Assembly: GCF_037996765.1 (NCBI RefSeq)
Contig: NZ_JBBNAD010000004.1
Span: 496,001 to 560,000, forward strand
Reading direction: 5' to 3'
Source: Bdellovibrio sp. GT3
GTDB lineage: Bacteria; Bdellovibrionota; Bdellovibrionia; Bdellovibrionales; Bdellovibrionaceae
Length of the DNA: 64,000 bases
Part shown: positions 37,382 to 63,861 of the stretch, in pieces
How the letters are laid out: each line of letters begins with the position of its first letter
Position numbering within the stretch: the first letter of the stretch is position 1
Notes under the pieces: model-generated
What the model was told of the DNA's origin: nothing
What the model saw: only the letters and a program-made list of their open reading frames with translations
The model's database searches: none
Made by a program: the position numbers and the translations under genes

Positions 37382-37786
37382 ATGAATAAAGCTCTTTCTA
37401 TGCTTGCGGTATTGGCAGTTTCTGCCTTCACTTTCTCTGCAAATGCAGATGTTAAAAAGCCCACTTTGGTTTGTAACTTCACTGAACCATTCATCCAGAT
37501 CGTTGTTTTGGCTAAAACTCAAACAATCGGTACAGTAGGTGACCATGTAGCTTTGCGTTCCCCAGGTAAAGACACTGTGATGGGTGCCATTGAAAGCACT
37601 TCTTACCATGAAGGTGTGAACTCCTGGAAATTGTCCGGCGAGGGCCTTGATCAATACGTGCTGGATATCGTTTTCGGCAAAAAAGGCAACGACGGCATGT
37701 CCGATAAAGAATACGAATTCGAAGGCATCCTAAAAACGGCAGGCGATGAATTCGTCCTATACGGTGGTTGTGACCTGGTAAAATAG
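37382..37786 (+). CDS. Small secreted protein, FTEPF/DGMSD paralogue A
   Basis: The 134-residue protein has a signal peptide (MNKALSMLAVLAVSAFTFSANA). Its mature part shares three blocks with the protein at 40692-41141: LVCNFTEPFIQI (other copy LHCTFTEPFFNI), KGNDGMSDKEYEF (KGSDGMSDEVYDM) and a final GGCDLVK (GGCNFGK). The two conserved Cys probably form a disulfide. The C-x-FTEPF motif recalls the GTEPFW motif of COG3650-type envelope proteins, whose function is unknown. AAGGAG lies 8 nt before the ATG. A terminator follows. Confidence 0.82.
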   Translation: MNKALSMLAVLAVSAFTFSANADVKKPTLVCNFTEPFIQIVVLAKTQTIGTVGDHVALRSPGKDTVMGAIESTSYHEGVNSWKLSGEGLDQYVLDIVFGKKGNDGMSDKEYEFEGILKTAGDEFVLYGGCDLVK

Positions 37787-37833: not shown

Positions 37834-37860
37834 TGCGGCAGTTTTGCCGCACTTTGCGGC
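37834..37860. promoter_or_regulatory. Tripartite operator-like repeat, copy 1
   Basis: TGCGGCA (37834-37840), four bases, TGCCGCA (37845-37851), two bases, TTGCGGC (37854-37860). The first two boxes are an inverted repeat and the third is a direct repeat of the first. The same spacing recurs at 38297-38323. It lies 74 bp before the ATG at 37934. Confidence 0.7.
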
Positions 37861-37933
37861 TCCAAAATTGGATTTTCAGCTCGTCCAGCTGCTACATTTC
37901 TTCTGAAGTTAAATCGAACCTTCAGGAGTATCC

Positions 37934-38275
37934 ATGAAATATCTTATTCTACTTTTAAGTCTTTTGGCGTCCACAGTCGTTTCTGCACAACCCATTGATG
38001 ATGATGTAAAAATCCTGGCAGTGACATGCCATGAGTTGCGTACTGAAAACTACATGTATGCAAGCGTTGGCGTAGCTCAGGTTCAAGGTGAATCTGGTGA
38101 ACGTTTTGCTTTGAAGTTGTGGGTAGACCGCTTTGCCGAAGATGCCGATGTCCATGCGGATAAGCTATGTAAAGACCTAAAGCAGGCTCTGAAAGAAAAC
38201 ACACTGGTCGAAGTTCGATATGATCTGTGGTTGGATTCCAACGACACCCTTCATAAATATATCGTGGCTGAGTAG
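37934..38275 (+). CDS. Small secreted protein, unknown function
   Basis: The 113-residue protein has a signal peptide (MKYLILLLSLLASTVVSAQ) and a mature part with two Cys (VTCHEL and KLCKDL). No known domain is recognised. AGGAG lies 7 nt before the ATG. It is preceded by operator-like repeat copy 1 and followed after 21 bp by copy 2, so its expression is probably tied to the TIGR02147 regulator next to it. Confidence 0.78.
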   Translation: MKYLILLLSLLASTVVSAQPIDDDVKILAVTCHELRTENYMYASVGVAQVQGESGERFALKLWVDRFAEDADVHADKLCKDLKQALKENTLVEVRYDLWLDSNDTLHKYIVAE

Positions 38276-38296
38276 TATTTGGTGAAAATTTACATC

Positions 38297-38323
38297 TGCG
38301 GCACTTTTGCCGCGGATTGCGGC
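38297..38323. promoter_or_regulatory. Tripartite operator-like repeat, copy 2, at the TIGR02147 start
   Basis: TGCGGCA (38297-38303), four bases, TGCCGCG (38308-38314), two bases, TTGCGGC (38317-38323). The spacing is identical to copy 1. It ends only 14 bp before the chosen regulator start (ATG 38338), a position that suits autoregulation. Confidence 0.7.
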
Positions 38324-38337
38324 AAAATAAGTGGAAA

Positions 38338-39108
38338 ATGAGTCAATTACCTATTAAAAGCATCCCCATGCTAATCAATCATCTACAGTCGGTTTTTGCA
38401 GAACGCAGTCGCAAGAACCCTTCTTATTCACTTCGAGCTTTTTCCAAGTCATTGGACATGGACTCTTCGACGTTGTCAGCGCTTCTTAGTGGCAAGCGTC
38501 CGATGACCACGAAAACAGCGATGAAGATCATCGATCGTCTGGAGATCAATGAGCCTTTGCAGGTGCAAAAACTATTGATGGGAGTCCTGGGAGCTGAGGA
38601 CGCCCCTCAGTCTTATTCAGATATTGATTTGGATTCTGCGGAAATGATCAGCTCGTGGGAGCATTTTGCGATTCTGGCAGTCCTGGAATTGCCAAAGGCA
38701 AAAACAGACACGACCTCCATCGCTAAGCGCTTGAACATTCCTATGGGAGTCGCGTTGGAATGCCTGGTTCGCTTGCAAAAGCTGGGATTGGTCGCAAAAG
38801 ACACGACTCAGTGGAAGCTGACCGGCAATAATATGTCCACACCCAAGAATATCCCGAGCTCGAAGATCCGCGAGGGTCATCGTCAGTTTATTCACAGGGC
38901 GATCGAGTCCTTGGAAAGTCACTCAGTCGATCAGCGTGATATTACGGGCATCACCATGGCGATCAATAAAAAGAAATTGGTTGAAGCCAAAGGTCTGATC
39001 GAAGACTTCCGTCGCCGTTTGTCCGCTTTCCTTGAAACAGGGAATAGGGATTCTGTTTATCGTTTGAACGTTCAATTGTTTCCCTTAACTCAGGAGAACC
39101 AGAAATGA
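38338..39108 (+). CDS. TIGR02147/DUF4423-family putative transcriptional regulator
   Basis: The 256-residue protein has an N-terminal helical region like an HTH: YSLRAFSKSLDMDSSTLSALLSGKRPMTTKTAMKIIDRL. A middle winged-helix-like domain follows (FAILAVLELPKAKTDTTSIAKRLNIPMGVALECLVRLQKLGLVAKD), and the C-terminus is RQFIHRAIESLESHSVDQRDITGITMAINKKKLVEAKGLIEDFRRRL, typical of the family. I choose ATG 38338 (GGAAA upstream) rather than a TTG inside the operator repeat. It overlaps the next gene by 4 nt (ATGA). It is the likely binder of the repeats around it (inference). Confidence 0.85.
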   Translation: MSQLPIKSIPMLINHLQSVFAERSRKNPSYSLRAFSKSLDMDSSTLSALLSGKRPMTTKTAMKIIDRLEINEPLQVQKLLMGVLGAEDAPQSYSDIDLDSAEMISSWEHFAILAVLELPKAKTDTTSIAKRLNIPMGVALECLVRLQKLGLVAKDTTQWKLTGNNMSTPKNIPSSKIREGHRQFIHRAIESLESHSVDQRDITGITMAINKKKLVEAKGLIEDFRRRLSAFLETGNRDSVYRLNVQLFPLTQENQK

Positions 39109-40007
39109 TGAAGCGAACCACTTCGCGGCTCATAATGGCGATTCTCATCCTCTCGGTCGTGGGAGCGGATCTGGTACAGGCTAAACCTGTAAGCAGACAG
39201 CGCGTAACCACTTGGGCCATGAGAGAGGGATGGGATCACGGCAATGCAGGGGATTCCTTTGCTGCCGAATTTATCATGACTGCCAAGGACTTGGTTCAAC
39301 ATCTGAAAACTCTGCCAAGCACAGAATTAAAGGGATTCAAAATTGAAACCCTGATTGGTGCGATTGAAACCACTACAGTGCGCAGTGAGCCGGTGCTTTA
39401 CTATGAAGACGGCCGCGAAGTAGAGGGTATTAATAAGCCAGAGCAAAAGTTAATCCTGATCAATCGTCGCATGTGGCGTGAAAATCGCGTCGAAACCGAG
39501 ACGTTGCATCGCTATACATTCGTTTTGCACGAATACCTGTGGATTATGGGTATTGATGATACTCAGTACAAGGTTTCGGCACCCATCGTGGCTTTGTTGC
39601 CGGTGAAAAATTACGATCCATCCAAATGGTGGAATCCACTGAATCCGGTCAACTATTTGACGTTGAACCTGATCTACAACAGTGGTGGTTGCTCCCTTGA
39701 AGGTGCTTCTTTTAATTTGGCGAAGACCGAAGAAATGGTCATGGTCGAAACCAAAGGCGACTGCGGTGATGACTACAGAAAAGTGGTTATAGCCAAGAGC
39801 TCGTTGACAGCTCCTCCATCATCCAACGCGCGTGGTACGTTCCATCGTTATCAAGTGGCAGTTCTGGATCGCGATGGAAACAATCTGGGACAGTTGACCT
39901 ACGAACCCGAGTGGGGTCGTTGTCTTGGTCCACAAACCGGGGCTTGTGCCTCGTCCGGCAAGATGCTTGTCGGTGGTGTTGAAATTATTTTTTGGCTAAG
40001 ACCGTAA
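39105..40007 (+). CDS. Secreted protein with HEYL motif, unknown function
   Basis: The 300-residue protein has a signal peptide (TSRLIMAILILSVVGADLVQA). The segment KLILINRRMWRE...HRYTFVLHEYLWIMGIDDTQYKVS carries an HEYL(x)xxGIDDxxY motif that I associate with a recurrent secreted family of Bdellovibrio-type genomes. It contains His-Glu but not HExxH, so metallopeptidase activity is not shown. Four Cys in the C-terminal half suggest disulfides. Its start overlaps the regulator's stop, so the two are translationally coupled. Confidence 0.78.
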   Translation: MMKRTTSRLIMAILILSVVGADLVQAKPVSRQRVTTWAMREGWDHGNAGDSFAAEFIMTAKDLVQHLKTLPSTELKGFKIETLIGAIETTTVRSEPVLYYEDGREVEGINKPEQKLILINRRMWRENRVETETLHRYTFVLHEYLWIMGIDDTQYKVSAPIVALLPVKNYDPSKWWNPLNPVNYLTLNLIYNSGGCSLEGASFNLAKTEEMVMVETKGDCGDDYRKVVIAKSSLTAPPSSNARGTFHRYQVAVLDRDGNNLGQLTYEPEWGRCLGPQTGACASSGKMLVGGVEIIFWLRP

Positions 40008-40017
40008 GGATACTCGT

Positions 40018-40482
40018 ATGAAATTAAATTTATTTATTCTAATCAGTGCATTGATGATGACTCCCAAAGTATTTGCTTACTCTGCTTGTGTGGGCGAAAC
40101 CTATCAGGGAAAAATCGTGATCGTGGAAATCATCACGGATGGCCCTTTGGCAAAAGCGCAAAGCGGTGTGGTTACAGTTGCTGAGGCGGGTGTCGGCAAA
40201 TACACTTACCAACTGAAGCAAGAAGAAATCGCCCAGTACTTTGAAGGTGGCGACACAAATACCGCGATGGTGGGTTTAGCCGCTTATCAGGCAGGTAACA
40301 ATCCAGTATGGATCATGTATCGTGGAATCAACTATCACGGTGACCTGGTCGCAGTTCTTCGTGATCCCGCCCGCGTAAAACAACCAGGCAATGAAATGCG
40401 CGTATGGCGCGGCCCGGGTTACCCGGCAGACCAACAAAGTCAATTTACCGACGTCATCTGCAATTTCTCTTTGGAGCAATAA
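40018..40482 (+). CDS. Small secreted protein, unknown function
   Basis: The 154-residue protein has a signal peptide (MKLNLFILISALMMTPKVFAYS) and two Cys, one near each end (SACVGE and VICNFS), likely a disulfide. No domain is recognised. It begins 10 bp after the previous gene with AAGGA as SD, so it is the third gene of the regulator operon. Its 3' untranslated region carries one copy of a 39-bp element also found after cdd. Confidence 0.78.
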   Translation: MKLNLFILISALMMTPKVFAYSACVGETYQGKIVIVEIITDGPLAKAQSGVVTVAEAGVGKYTYQLKQEEIAQYFEGGDTNTAMVGLAAYQAGNNPVWIMYRGINYHGDLVAVLRDPARVKQPGNEMRVWRGPGYPADQQSQFTDVICNFSLEQ

Positions 40483-40483
40483 C

Positions 40484-40522
40484 CTAAAAGGTCGCGCCAG
40501 AGGTGAAGACACACCTTCTCCA
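40484..40522 (+). repeat. 39-bp 3'-end element, copy 1
   Basis: The first 28 bases (CTAAAAGGTCGCGCCAGAGG..., ending GAAGACA) are the exact reverse complement of 41206-41233; the next 11 match with two C/T differences. It contains AGGTG-AAGACA-CACCT, a 5-bp hairpin. It follows the stop of the 40018-40482 gene. Confidence 0.85.
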
Positions 40523-40541
40523 TATATTAAAATCTTCCAAG

Positions 40542-40567
40542 CCCTGCCTAACCAGCAGGGTTTTTTT
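40542..40567 (+). terminator. Intrinsic terminator of the regulator operon
   Basis: CCCTGC (40542-40547) pairs with GCAGGG (40555-40560), followed by T7. It ends the TIGR02147 operon just after the 39-bp element. Confidence 0.85.
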
Positions 40568-40580
40568 ATTGTTTTCATCG

Positions 40581-40605
40581 TGCGGCAAAGTTGCCGCGGT
40601 TTCGG
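40581..40605. promoter_or_regulatory. Operator-like repeat, copy 3 (third box degenerate)
   Basis: TGCGGCA (40581-40587), four bases, TGCCGCG (40592-40598) repeat the inverted pair of copies 1 and 2. The third box is only partly kept (TTCGG at 40601). It lies about 90 bp before the ATG at 40692. Confidence 0.6.
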
Positions 40606-40691
40606 TTTCCAGATTTAGGGGTTTTCATAGAGTCGATGTTAAAAAGGTCCCATCGAAAGATAACAACCTTAACTAAGAACACGGAGTCACT

Positions 40692-41141
40692 ATGAAAACA
40701 TTGATTTTTGCGACACTCTTACTAATCGGAACATCGGCATTTGCGGGGCCCGCAACGCCGCCAGTGGGAGAACGAGTTACTTTGCACTGTACGTTTACGG
40801 AACCCTTCTTTAATATCACGATTGTGGGCTTTGATGTCTATGAAGGGTACACGACTGGGATTGTAAACAAAGGTGATGTCGTTATTTACCAGGATCCATA
40901 CACATCTGAGGATGGTGTCTATCGCAAAGAAACGACAGTCCTCGCGGCCTCTACAAAAGAAGAAAATGTTGTTGTGAAATTTGATTTGGGTGAGCCTTTG
41001 GGGATGCTGGTTCTGCATATGGATCGCCAAGAAAAAGGCTCCGACGGAATGTCAGACGAGGTCTATGATATGTCTGTTACTTCGATTCACCTGAACGGAT
41101 CACGTTTGAGCAATATCGGCGGCTGTAATTTTGGAAAATAG
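40692..41141 (+). CDS. Small secreted protein, FTEPF/DGMSD paralogue B
   Basis: The 149-residue protein has a signal peptide (MKTLIFATLLLIGTSAFAG). It is a diverged copy of the protein at 37382-37786, sharing the CxFTEPF block, the KGxDGMSD block and the final GGC. The middle part differs and is slightly longer. It has its own promoter region with operator-like repeat copy 3 and its own terminator. Function unknown; duplication plus shared operator suggests a coordinated secreted set. Confidence 0.82.
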   Translation: MKTLIFATLLLIGTSAFAGPATPPVGERVTLHCTFTEPFFNITIVGFDVYEGYTTGIVNKGDVVIYQDPYTSEDGVYRKETTVLAASTKEENVVVKFDLGEPLGMLVLHMDRQEKGSDGMSDEVYDMSVTSIHLNGSRLSNIGGCNFGK

Positions 41142-63049: not shown

Positions 63050-63861
63050 ACTTCCAGCCAATCTAAATTTAAAAGATACAGGGTTTCCGACGGTGATGGG
63101 TCGGAAACTTCGCGGACTTTTTTGATGGAATCCAAAAGCAGGCTGCGCACTTTCGATACGTCCTCTTTGGAAAGGCAAATCGCCAAACTATAGGCAAGCT
63201 CGCTGGTGCTTTCCATTGATGCGTGACGGGACATCGCTTGCAGGCGCCACTGACTGTGATGGGTGCCGATCTGATAAGAGTCATGACCCAAGTGCATGTG
63301 CGTGGGGCCTACGTTAAAGCGCGTGCCTTCCTGTATGCAAAGTCCTTTGTCCAACAGAAAGTCCATGGCATCGGAGCATTCTTTAACTGGTATACCCAGG
63401 CGTTTTGCAATGTCTTCGATGGAGTTGCACTCGGGGAGCACGGACGCCAGGCGAATGGCTGCATAAACCCAGGAAGAATAAAATCGAGTGTTGTCTTCCG
63501 AAGACAATAAAACATTTTCATGGGGAACAACGCCGGAAATTTGATTGTGCTTCAATCTGAGCTCTTCAAGTTCACGGGACAACTCCTGACGAAGTTCTTC
63601 GGAACCTGCGCGATCGTAGTCAGCCATTCGTAAGAAATAACGTTTTTGCCATGTACCCAGACTCATATAGTTTGCGATGCCCAGGGCTTGTTCTGCATTT
63701 AATGAGCGCTCGCCGCTTAAAATCAGACTGAAATACGACGGGAAGACGCCAGCGGCTTTTGACAGACGTCCATTGATTCCACGACGTTCCGTCGGTGAAA
63801 GGCTTTCGATATAGGCCTTCACGAAATCGACGGGTTTTTTGAAAAGGAAGATGTCAGTCAT
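63046..63861 (-). CDS. Second TIGR02147/DUF4423-family putative regulator
   Basis: The 271-residue protein begins MTDIFLFKKPVDFVKAYIESLSPTERRGINGRLSKAAGVFPSYFSLILSGERSLNAEQALGIANYMSLG, a TIGR02147-type HTH-like region. The middle is a winged-helix segment (YSSWVYAAIRLASVLPECNSIEDIAKRLGIPVKECSDAMDFLLDKGLCIQEG) and the C-terminus is LAYSLAICLSKEDVSKVRSLLLDSIKKVREV. ATG 63861 is chosen; a TTG at 63870 is the alternative. Neither has an SD. AT-rich palindromes lie directly upstream. It is a paralogue of 38338-39108. Confidence 0.83.
   Translation of the reverse strand: MTDIFLFKKPVDFVKAYIESLSPTERRGINGRLSKAAGVFPSYFSLILSGERSLNAEQALGIANYMSLGTWQKRYFLRMADYDRAGSEELRQELSRELEELRLKHNQISGVVPHENVLLSSEDNTRFYSSWVYAAIRLASVLPECNSIEDIAKRLGIPVKECSDAMDFLLDKGLCIQEGTRFNVGPTHMHLGHDSYQIGTHHSQWRLQAMSRHASMESTSELAYSLAICLSKEDVSKVRSLLLDSIKKVREVSDPSPSETLYLLNLDWLEV

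Follow-up and report, generated by a model that had tools for sequence, protein, structure and literature searches.

A three-box DNA element before a Bdellovibrio TIGR02147/DUF4423 regulator is very probably its binding site and one case of a family-wide operator design

The repeated three-box element of Bdellovibrio sp. GT3 is very probably the binding site of the adjoining regulator. We hold with high confidence that the TIGR02147/DUF4423 protein of gene 38368–39108 uses it as its DNA site, likely an activating one, and that it is one case of a design found in many members of the family. The initial annotation had proposed the element as the operator of this regulator; conservation with its orthologues, its presence and absence along with them, and the family-wide covariation of recognition helix and half-site all speak for that proposal. 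The main gain beyond the confirmed element appears, from sequence comparison, to be a family-wide and partly decodable operator design.

Results

The element and its occurrence in the genome

The window is a stretch of 64,000 nucleotides (contig 4, positions 496001–560000) from a genome of 3.58 Mb in six contigs. It contains three copies of the element, all on the plus strand. Copy 1 (37834–37861) reads TGCGGCA-gttt-TGCCGCA-ctt-TGCGGCT, with box1 at 37834–37840, box2 at 37845–37851 and box3 at 37855–37861. Copy 2 (38297–38324; boxes at 38297–38303, 38308–38314 and 38318–38324) reads TGCGGCA-cttt-TGCCGCG-gat-TGCGGCA and stands before the regulator gene, where it is putatively autoregulatory. 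Copy 3 (40581–40608) reads TGCGGCA-aagt-TGCCGCG-gtt-TCGGTTT; box1 (40581–40587) and box2 (40592–40598) are intact and box3 is lost, its position (40602–40608) being degenerate. Thus, the identical box order and spacing reported for the copies at 37834 and 38297, and the inverted pair reported as kept at 40581, are all found at those positions.

The exact inverted pair, TGCGGCA-n4-TGCCGC, occurs at 5 places in the genome, where an order-2 model of the window predicts 0.07, and the reversed control motif gives zero genome matches at 0 mismatches. Besides the three copies in the window there are two unlinked sites, both on the minus strand, at C5:1506758–1506784 and C6:418051–418077, each of which keeps box3 with one mismatch. 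Every one of the five lies before the regulator or a secreted-protein gene, the latter in four cases. This is the result of the genome-wide search that the initial annotation had suggested; a motif that is common and randomly placed, the outcome it had set against its own proposal, was looked for across the genome and not found. A search of the whole genome with all three boxes and up to 3 mismatches returned 4 of the 5 exact sites and one weak extra, besides the reverse reading of one of them. The one-mismatch matches were partly inspected, and two were rejected as further targets: GGCGGCA at C5:918671 is terminator-like and the match at C4:1067995 apparently lies inside a coding sequence.

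Promoter architecture and the start of the regulator gene

Fifteen promoters from five genomes, aligned on box1, match without gaps, and a sixteenth (in G035) fits the same arrangement. All 16 have one fixed layout, box1-n4-box2-n3-box3-n7-weak −35-n17-−10, the aligned sequences ending in box3-n7-T.....-n17-TAnAA or similar, with a weaker −10 in G010 and a shift of one base in a few. The predicted regulator promoter (38332–38360, plus strand) has a −35 of TGGAAA (38332–38337) and a −10 of TAAAAG (38355–38360), at +14 and +37 from box3, in the common phase. For copy 1 the phase shared by the 15 others predicts a promoter at 37869–37897 on the plus strand, with a weak −35, TGGATT (37869–37874), and a −10, CTACAT (37892–37897). 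That of copy 3 is predicted at 40616–40644, also on the plus strand (−35 TAGGGG, 40616–40621; −10 TTAAAA, 40639–40644).

The initial annotation placed copy 2 at 14 bp before the regulator start, a distance that depends on the ATG at 38338. This ATG falls between the −35 and the −10, so that the −10 lies between two ATGs, and the G035 orthologue has no such upstream start; we have therefore rejected it. The fixed promoter phase and the orthologues indicate instead that the true start is probably 38368. The −10, TAAAAG, lies about 7–8 bases before this ATG, so the message is probably leaderless. The centre of the dyad is about 52 bases before the leaderless start.

The same phase can be seen in the wider family. 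An in-frame ATG follows the start of box3 by 48–52 bases in 35 of 59 family promoters, with a peak of 18 at 50 bases. Prominent bases family-wide are T (+14), G (+16) and TA (+37/38), none of which had served in the choice of promoters. Most operator-bearing TIGR02147 genes (L025–L212) are apparently leaderless, with an ATG about 8 bases after the −10. Leaderless messages could cause the annotated starts of TIGR02147 genes to be mis-set.

Target and neighbouring genes

All the genes in this paragraph are on the plus strand. Copy 1 precedes a gene (37934–38275), upstream of the regulator, for a secreted protein of 113 residues that matches no family over its cut-off. Behind the regulator, a gene for a 300-residue protein with an N-terminal hydrophobic segment (39105–40007) starts within the regulator stop and probably belongs to the same operon, as probably does the gene of a 154-residue secreted protein (40018–40482), which begins 10 bases after the preceding stop. 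Copy 3 precedes the gene (40692–41141) of a 149-residue secreted protein of the “CxFTEPF...GSDGMSD” kind. This product had been described as a secreted protein paralogous to that behind copy 1; it is secreted, but has no similarity to the copy-1 protein, and its relatives are the product of the gene at 37382, which lacks the element (32% identity, E = 3e-10), and the 153-residue secreted protein behind the C5 site (50% identity, E = 7e-51). The target of the C6 site is likewise a gene for a small secreted protein. The idea of a local regulon of secreted proteins is borne out as regards the nature of the targets, but the regulon is not purely local, since two unlinked secreted-protein genes also carry the element.

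The paralogue at 37382–37786 is a secreted CNFTEPF protein with no element upstream, although proteins of this kind are preceded by one in the regulons of G010 and G035.

Conservation in relatives

Clear orthologues of the regulator were found among 80 relatives in G022 (90% identity), G011 (89%), G010 (80–85%, in two pieces), G035 (70%) and G020 (59%). In the first four of these, at 70–90% identity, the exact motif lies directly before the orthologue, while genomes with no orthologue contain it 0–2 times, which is the rate of the reversed control. Extra copies stand before other secreted-protein genes in G011, G022 and G010 and, with one change, in G035; the element-bearing secreted protein in G010 and G035 is again of the CxFTEPF kind. 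In G020, the orthologue of which has the same helix residues, no site above background was found; its regulator gene lies behind another gene, with no room for a promoter of its own.

In G011 (L051) and G022, two complete operators about 180 bp apart precede the regulator, and between them an inverted repeat (ATATCGTTTC ... GAAACGATAT) replaces the gene of the 113-residue protein.

The regulator protein

Read from M38368, the regulator has 246 residues (38368–39108, plus strand; start re-assigned from 38338). It scores 112.5 bits (E = 2.4e-32) against TIGR02147 of NCBIfam, over the curated cut-off of 50 bits, and 152.3 bits against DUF4423 (PF14394; residues 95–250 of the 256-residue reading), over the gathering cut-off of 30 bits. 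The score for HTH_3 (PF01381), 17.7 bits, is below the gathering cut-off of 23 bits. The predicted structure (AlphaFold2, mean pLDDT 91) has HTH helices at 22–28 and 33–41, the latter being the recognition helix, a winged-helix-like domain at about 97–151, and C-terminal helices. By sequence no relative was found among the solved structures, and comparison of the fold with them gave weak winged-helix matches only, of the MarR and IclR types, with E = 5e-3 or worse. This second, winged-helix-like domain might serve in binding DNA, a ligand or a partner.

DUF4423 genes number 24 in this genome, and 14 control genomes have none; the large TIGR02147/DUF4423 family appears to be expanded in the predatory Bdellovibrionota. 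Two of the DUF4423 paralogues are found some 4 kb away from the unlinked sites on C5 and C6. The window itself contains a second DUF4423/TIGR02147 paralogue, at about 63052–63501 on the minus strand. Its N-terminus differs, lacking NPSYSLRAF, and the dyads upstream of it are AT-rich; a three-box operator was looked for there and not found.

A three-box design across the family

Perfect 7-bp dyads with a 3-bp spacer occur in 35 of 159 upstream regions of TIGR02147/DUF4423 genes, compared with 3.25 expected from dinucleotide shuffles. The next commonest spacer, 5, is found in 21 of the 159 promoters and represents in part the same sites less one inner pair. We define the tripartite operator here as inverted and direct half-sites before the gene in the arrangement box1-n(3–9)-box2-n3-box3, to which copy 2, with gaps of n4 and n3, conforms. 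Several examples are perfect in all three boxes: TGTTTAC-n4-GTAAACA-ctt-TGTTTAC, TGTGGAC-n7-GTCCACA-ctt-TGTGGAC, TGTAGCA-n7-TGCTACA-ctt-TGTAGCA, TGGTTCA-n6-TGAACCA-gtt-TGGTTCA, TGTGACA-n7-TGTCACA-ctt-TGTGACA and TGATTCA-n6-TGAATCA-ctt-TGATTCA. The second gap is fixed at 3 in the family; the first ranges from 4 to 9 among high-scoring regulators and is always 4 in the focal set. In the focal regulon the strict pair is box1–box2, and box3 has decayed at several targets. In the family as a whole, by contrast, it is the box2-n3-box3 spacing that is most constant, with box1 as the addition to this pair.

An operator was found from DNA alone in 44 of 83 new TIGR02147 promoters, and about half of the family promoters yield none by this test. 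The three-box threshold is reached by 13 of 49 in an independent set of named records and by 2 of 127 control promoters, although seven or eight of the records duplicate genomes that had already been covered; the combined score gives 21 of 51 and 2 of 133. The scan returned Bdellovibrio-like, Oligoflexia, Silvanigrella and loosely named proteobacterial records, and no Fibrobacter, to which the NCBIfam short name (Fsuc) points. Judged by these upstream regions, between a third and a half of the related regulators examined from predatory bacteria have the same three-box design in other letters.

Recognition helix and half-site letters

Operators were assigned from the DNA only. When HTH columns were compared with half-site bases in 44 non-redundant regulators, the eight strongest associations all involved residues 32, 33, 34, 35 and 38, which in the structure model form the start of the recognition helix (33–41). 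With 57 non-redundant regulators the six strongest are again in this helix, largely confirming the discovery. Base 3 follows residue 33: where this is Pro or Ala, the base is T in 85 of 89 boxes, while Gln is accompanied by A in 15 of 15, His by G in 16 of 20 and Ser by C in 22 of 33. Asp 32 goes with G at base 5 (14 of 14 boxes). Where residue 38 is Glu, base 4 is T in 13 of 13 boxes and base 5 is C in 11 of 13. The focal regulator fits the rule, with D32, S33 and S34 alongside C, G and G at bases 3, 4 and 5 of TGCGGCA. The nearest neighbour by the five helix residues predicts 68% of the variable bases, compared with 51% for the rest of the HTH and 39% at random.

The held-out set consisted of 83 unused promoters, of which 44 were assigned from DNA and 39 were non-redundant. 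Here residue 33 predicts base 3 in 33 of 37 cases (mean of 20,000 shuffles 17.3, maximum 27), and C at base 5 accompanies E38 in 6 of 6 regulators as against 3 of 33 that have no E38. Some of the proteins held out have a moderate relationship to those of the discovery set. A tree-based independent-pairs test of residue and base changes gave almost no pair in the wrong direction; with few well-supported branches, significance was not reached. Because of this kinship and the small number of such branches, the support for the rule is strong but not free of shared descent. On these associations the half-site letters are largely predictable from the protein, and the design is partly decodable.

Discussion

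Proposed mechanism and alternatives

We propose that the protein would read 7-bp half-sites (TGCGGCA) through the N-terminal end of its recognition helix (D32 S33 S34 T35 .. A38). Equivalent bases of the three half-sites are separated by 11 and 10 bp, one helical turn each time; all three would thus lie on the same face of the DNA helix, a spacing that seems suited to a dimer plus a third subunit; the extra half-site is possibly, as the initial annotation took it, a hint of cooperative binding. Placed directly upstream of a weak −35 and at a fixed distance from the −10, the sites would allow the regulator to touch RNA polymerase from upstream and so activate its own leaderless gene together with the two that follow, and in the same way a small set of secreted-protein genes. 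We infer both direct binding and direct autoregulation. Many regulators of the family have their own version of box1-n(3–9)-box2-n3-box3 before their own gene, with letters that would be set by the recognition helix.

The direction of control is the less certain part. Activation is favoured over repression, with some reserve, because of where the sites lie, upstream of the −35 as is usual for activators: they never overlap the −35, the −10 or the start, they keep one fixed upstream distance in 16 promoters, and the focal set has poor −35 boxes, which is what activator-dependent promoters should have. That the same protein acts on the same site as a repressor, of its own gene and of the secreted proteins, is the less likely reading but carries real weight. 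Many small HTH_3-type regulators repress their own genes, a usable −35 (T at +14, G at +16) occurs in some promoters of the family, one of the regulator's own paralogues has two tandem perfect dyads before its gene, and an upstream placement is compatible with repression.

It is very unlikely that the sites belong to another DNA-binding protein, of which the TIGR02147 gene is just one target. The two paralogues near the C5 and C6 sites might be thought of in this connection, but the motif tracks the presence of this orthologue, the half-site letters across the family agree better with the neighbouring regulator's recognition helix than with the rest of its HTH, and prediction works in the held-out set. 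Still less credit can be given to GC-rich inverted repeats of another kind, such as terminators, REP-like repeats or RNA hairpins. Copies 1 and 3 do follow terminator-like sequences of the upstream genes, and the boxes could form hairpins; however, REP/BIME-type repeats would have many intergenic copies and no tie to promoters, whereas here there are only five, all at promoters in one phase, with letters that change with the regulator. The element also lies upstream of the predicted transcription start and so would be absent from the RNA of the target, which argues against a hairpin, and copy number and promoter phase together lead us to reject this reading. A lack of promoter phase or of conservation would have spoken in its favour, but both are present. 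Chance repeats, given the excess over expectation and the conservation in other genomes, have a negligible probability.

Returning to activation by the regulator from its own site, we consider it rather probable, a little less so than activation itself, that the family is a set of private self-activating switches, each protein having a private three-box site that precedes its leaderless gene and a small number of secreted-protein genes, and that the site is readable from five residues by a nearly one-to-one rule of residue and base.

Relation to known systems

In the literature searched, which left most subscription papers outside its scope, no DNA site, target or function was found for TIGR02147/DUF4423, and no paper names TIGR02147. 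DUF4423 is mentioned once there, as the label of Bd3700, a protein that is raised in the exit phase of predation, by 2.67 log2 units.

The operators of the lambda/434 type (cI, 434 repressor) resemble the present ones in the HTH_3-like N-terminus of the protein and in inverted half-sites spaced by about one turn of the helix. It is with the beginning of its recognition helix that the 434 repressor contacts bases, and this is the region where the residues vary here. The present system differs in its three half-sites, variable first gap, position upstream of the −35 and HTH_3 score below the cut-off. Class I/II activator sites (e.g. those of CRP) also adjoin a weak −35 on its upstream side and keep a fixed distance from it; here the dyad centre is near −52 from the predicted start, and the half-sites and protein are unrelated. 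For the LacI, IclR and MocR families, regulator sites and regulons have been derived by genome comparison (PMC4052901, PMC8222616, PMC5320631). Those families have characterised members, whereas here there was no prior site, and one residue position sorts with all four bases.

A readable site code would make regulons predictable from genome sequence and so provide a pointer to the secreted proteins at each step of predation. It would also be a clean and testable residue-to-base recognition rule in a natural protein family.

A different arrangement is seen at the paralogue at C5:313905, which has two tandem perfect dyads, CGGGACA-n3-TGTCCCG, 28 bp apart (G000:C5:314674-314718; L264, L265). These tandem dyads occur nowhere else in this genome, and a similar pair stands before the orthologues in several Bdellovibrio genomes.
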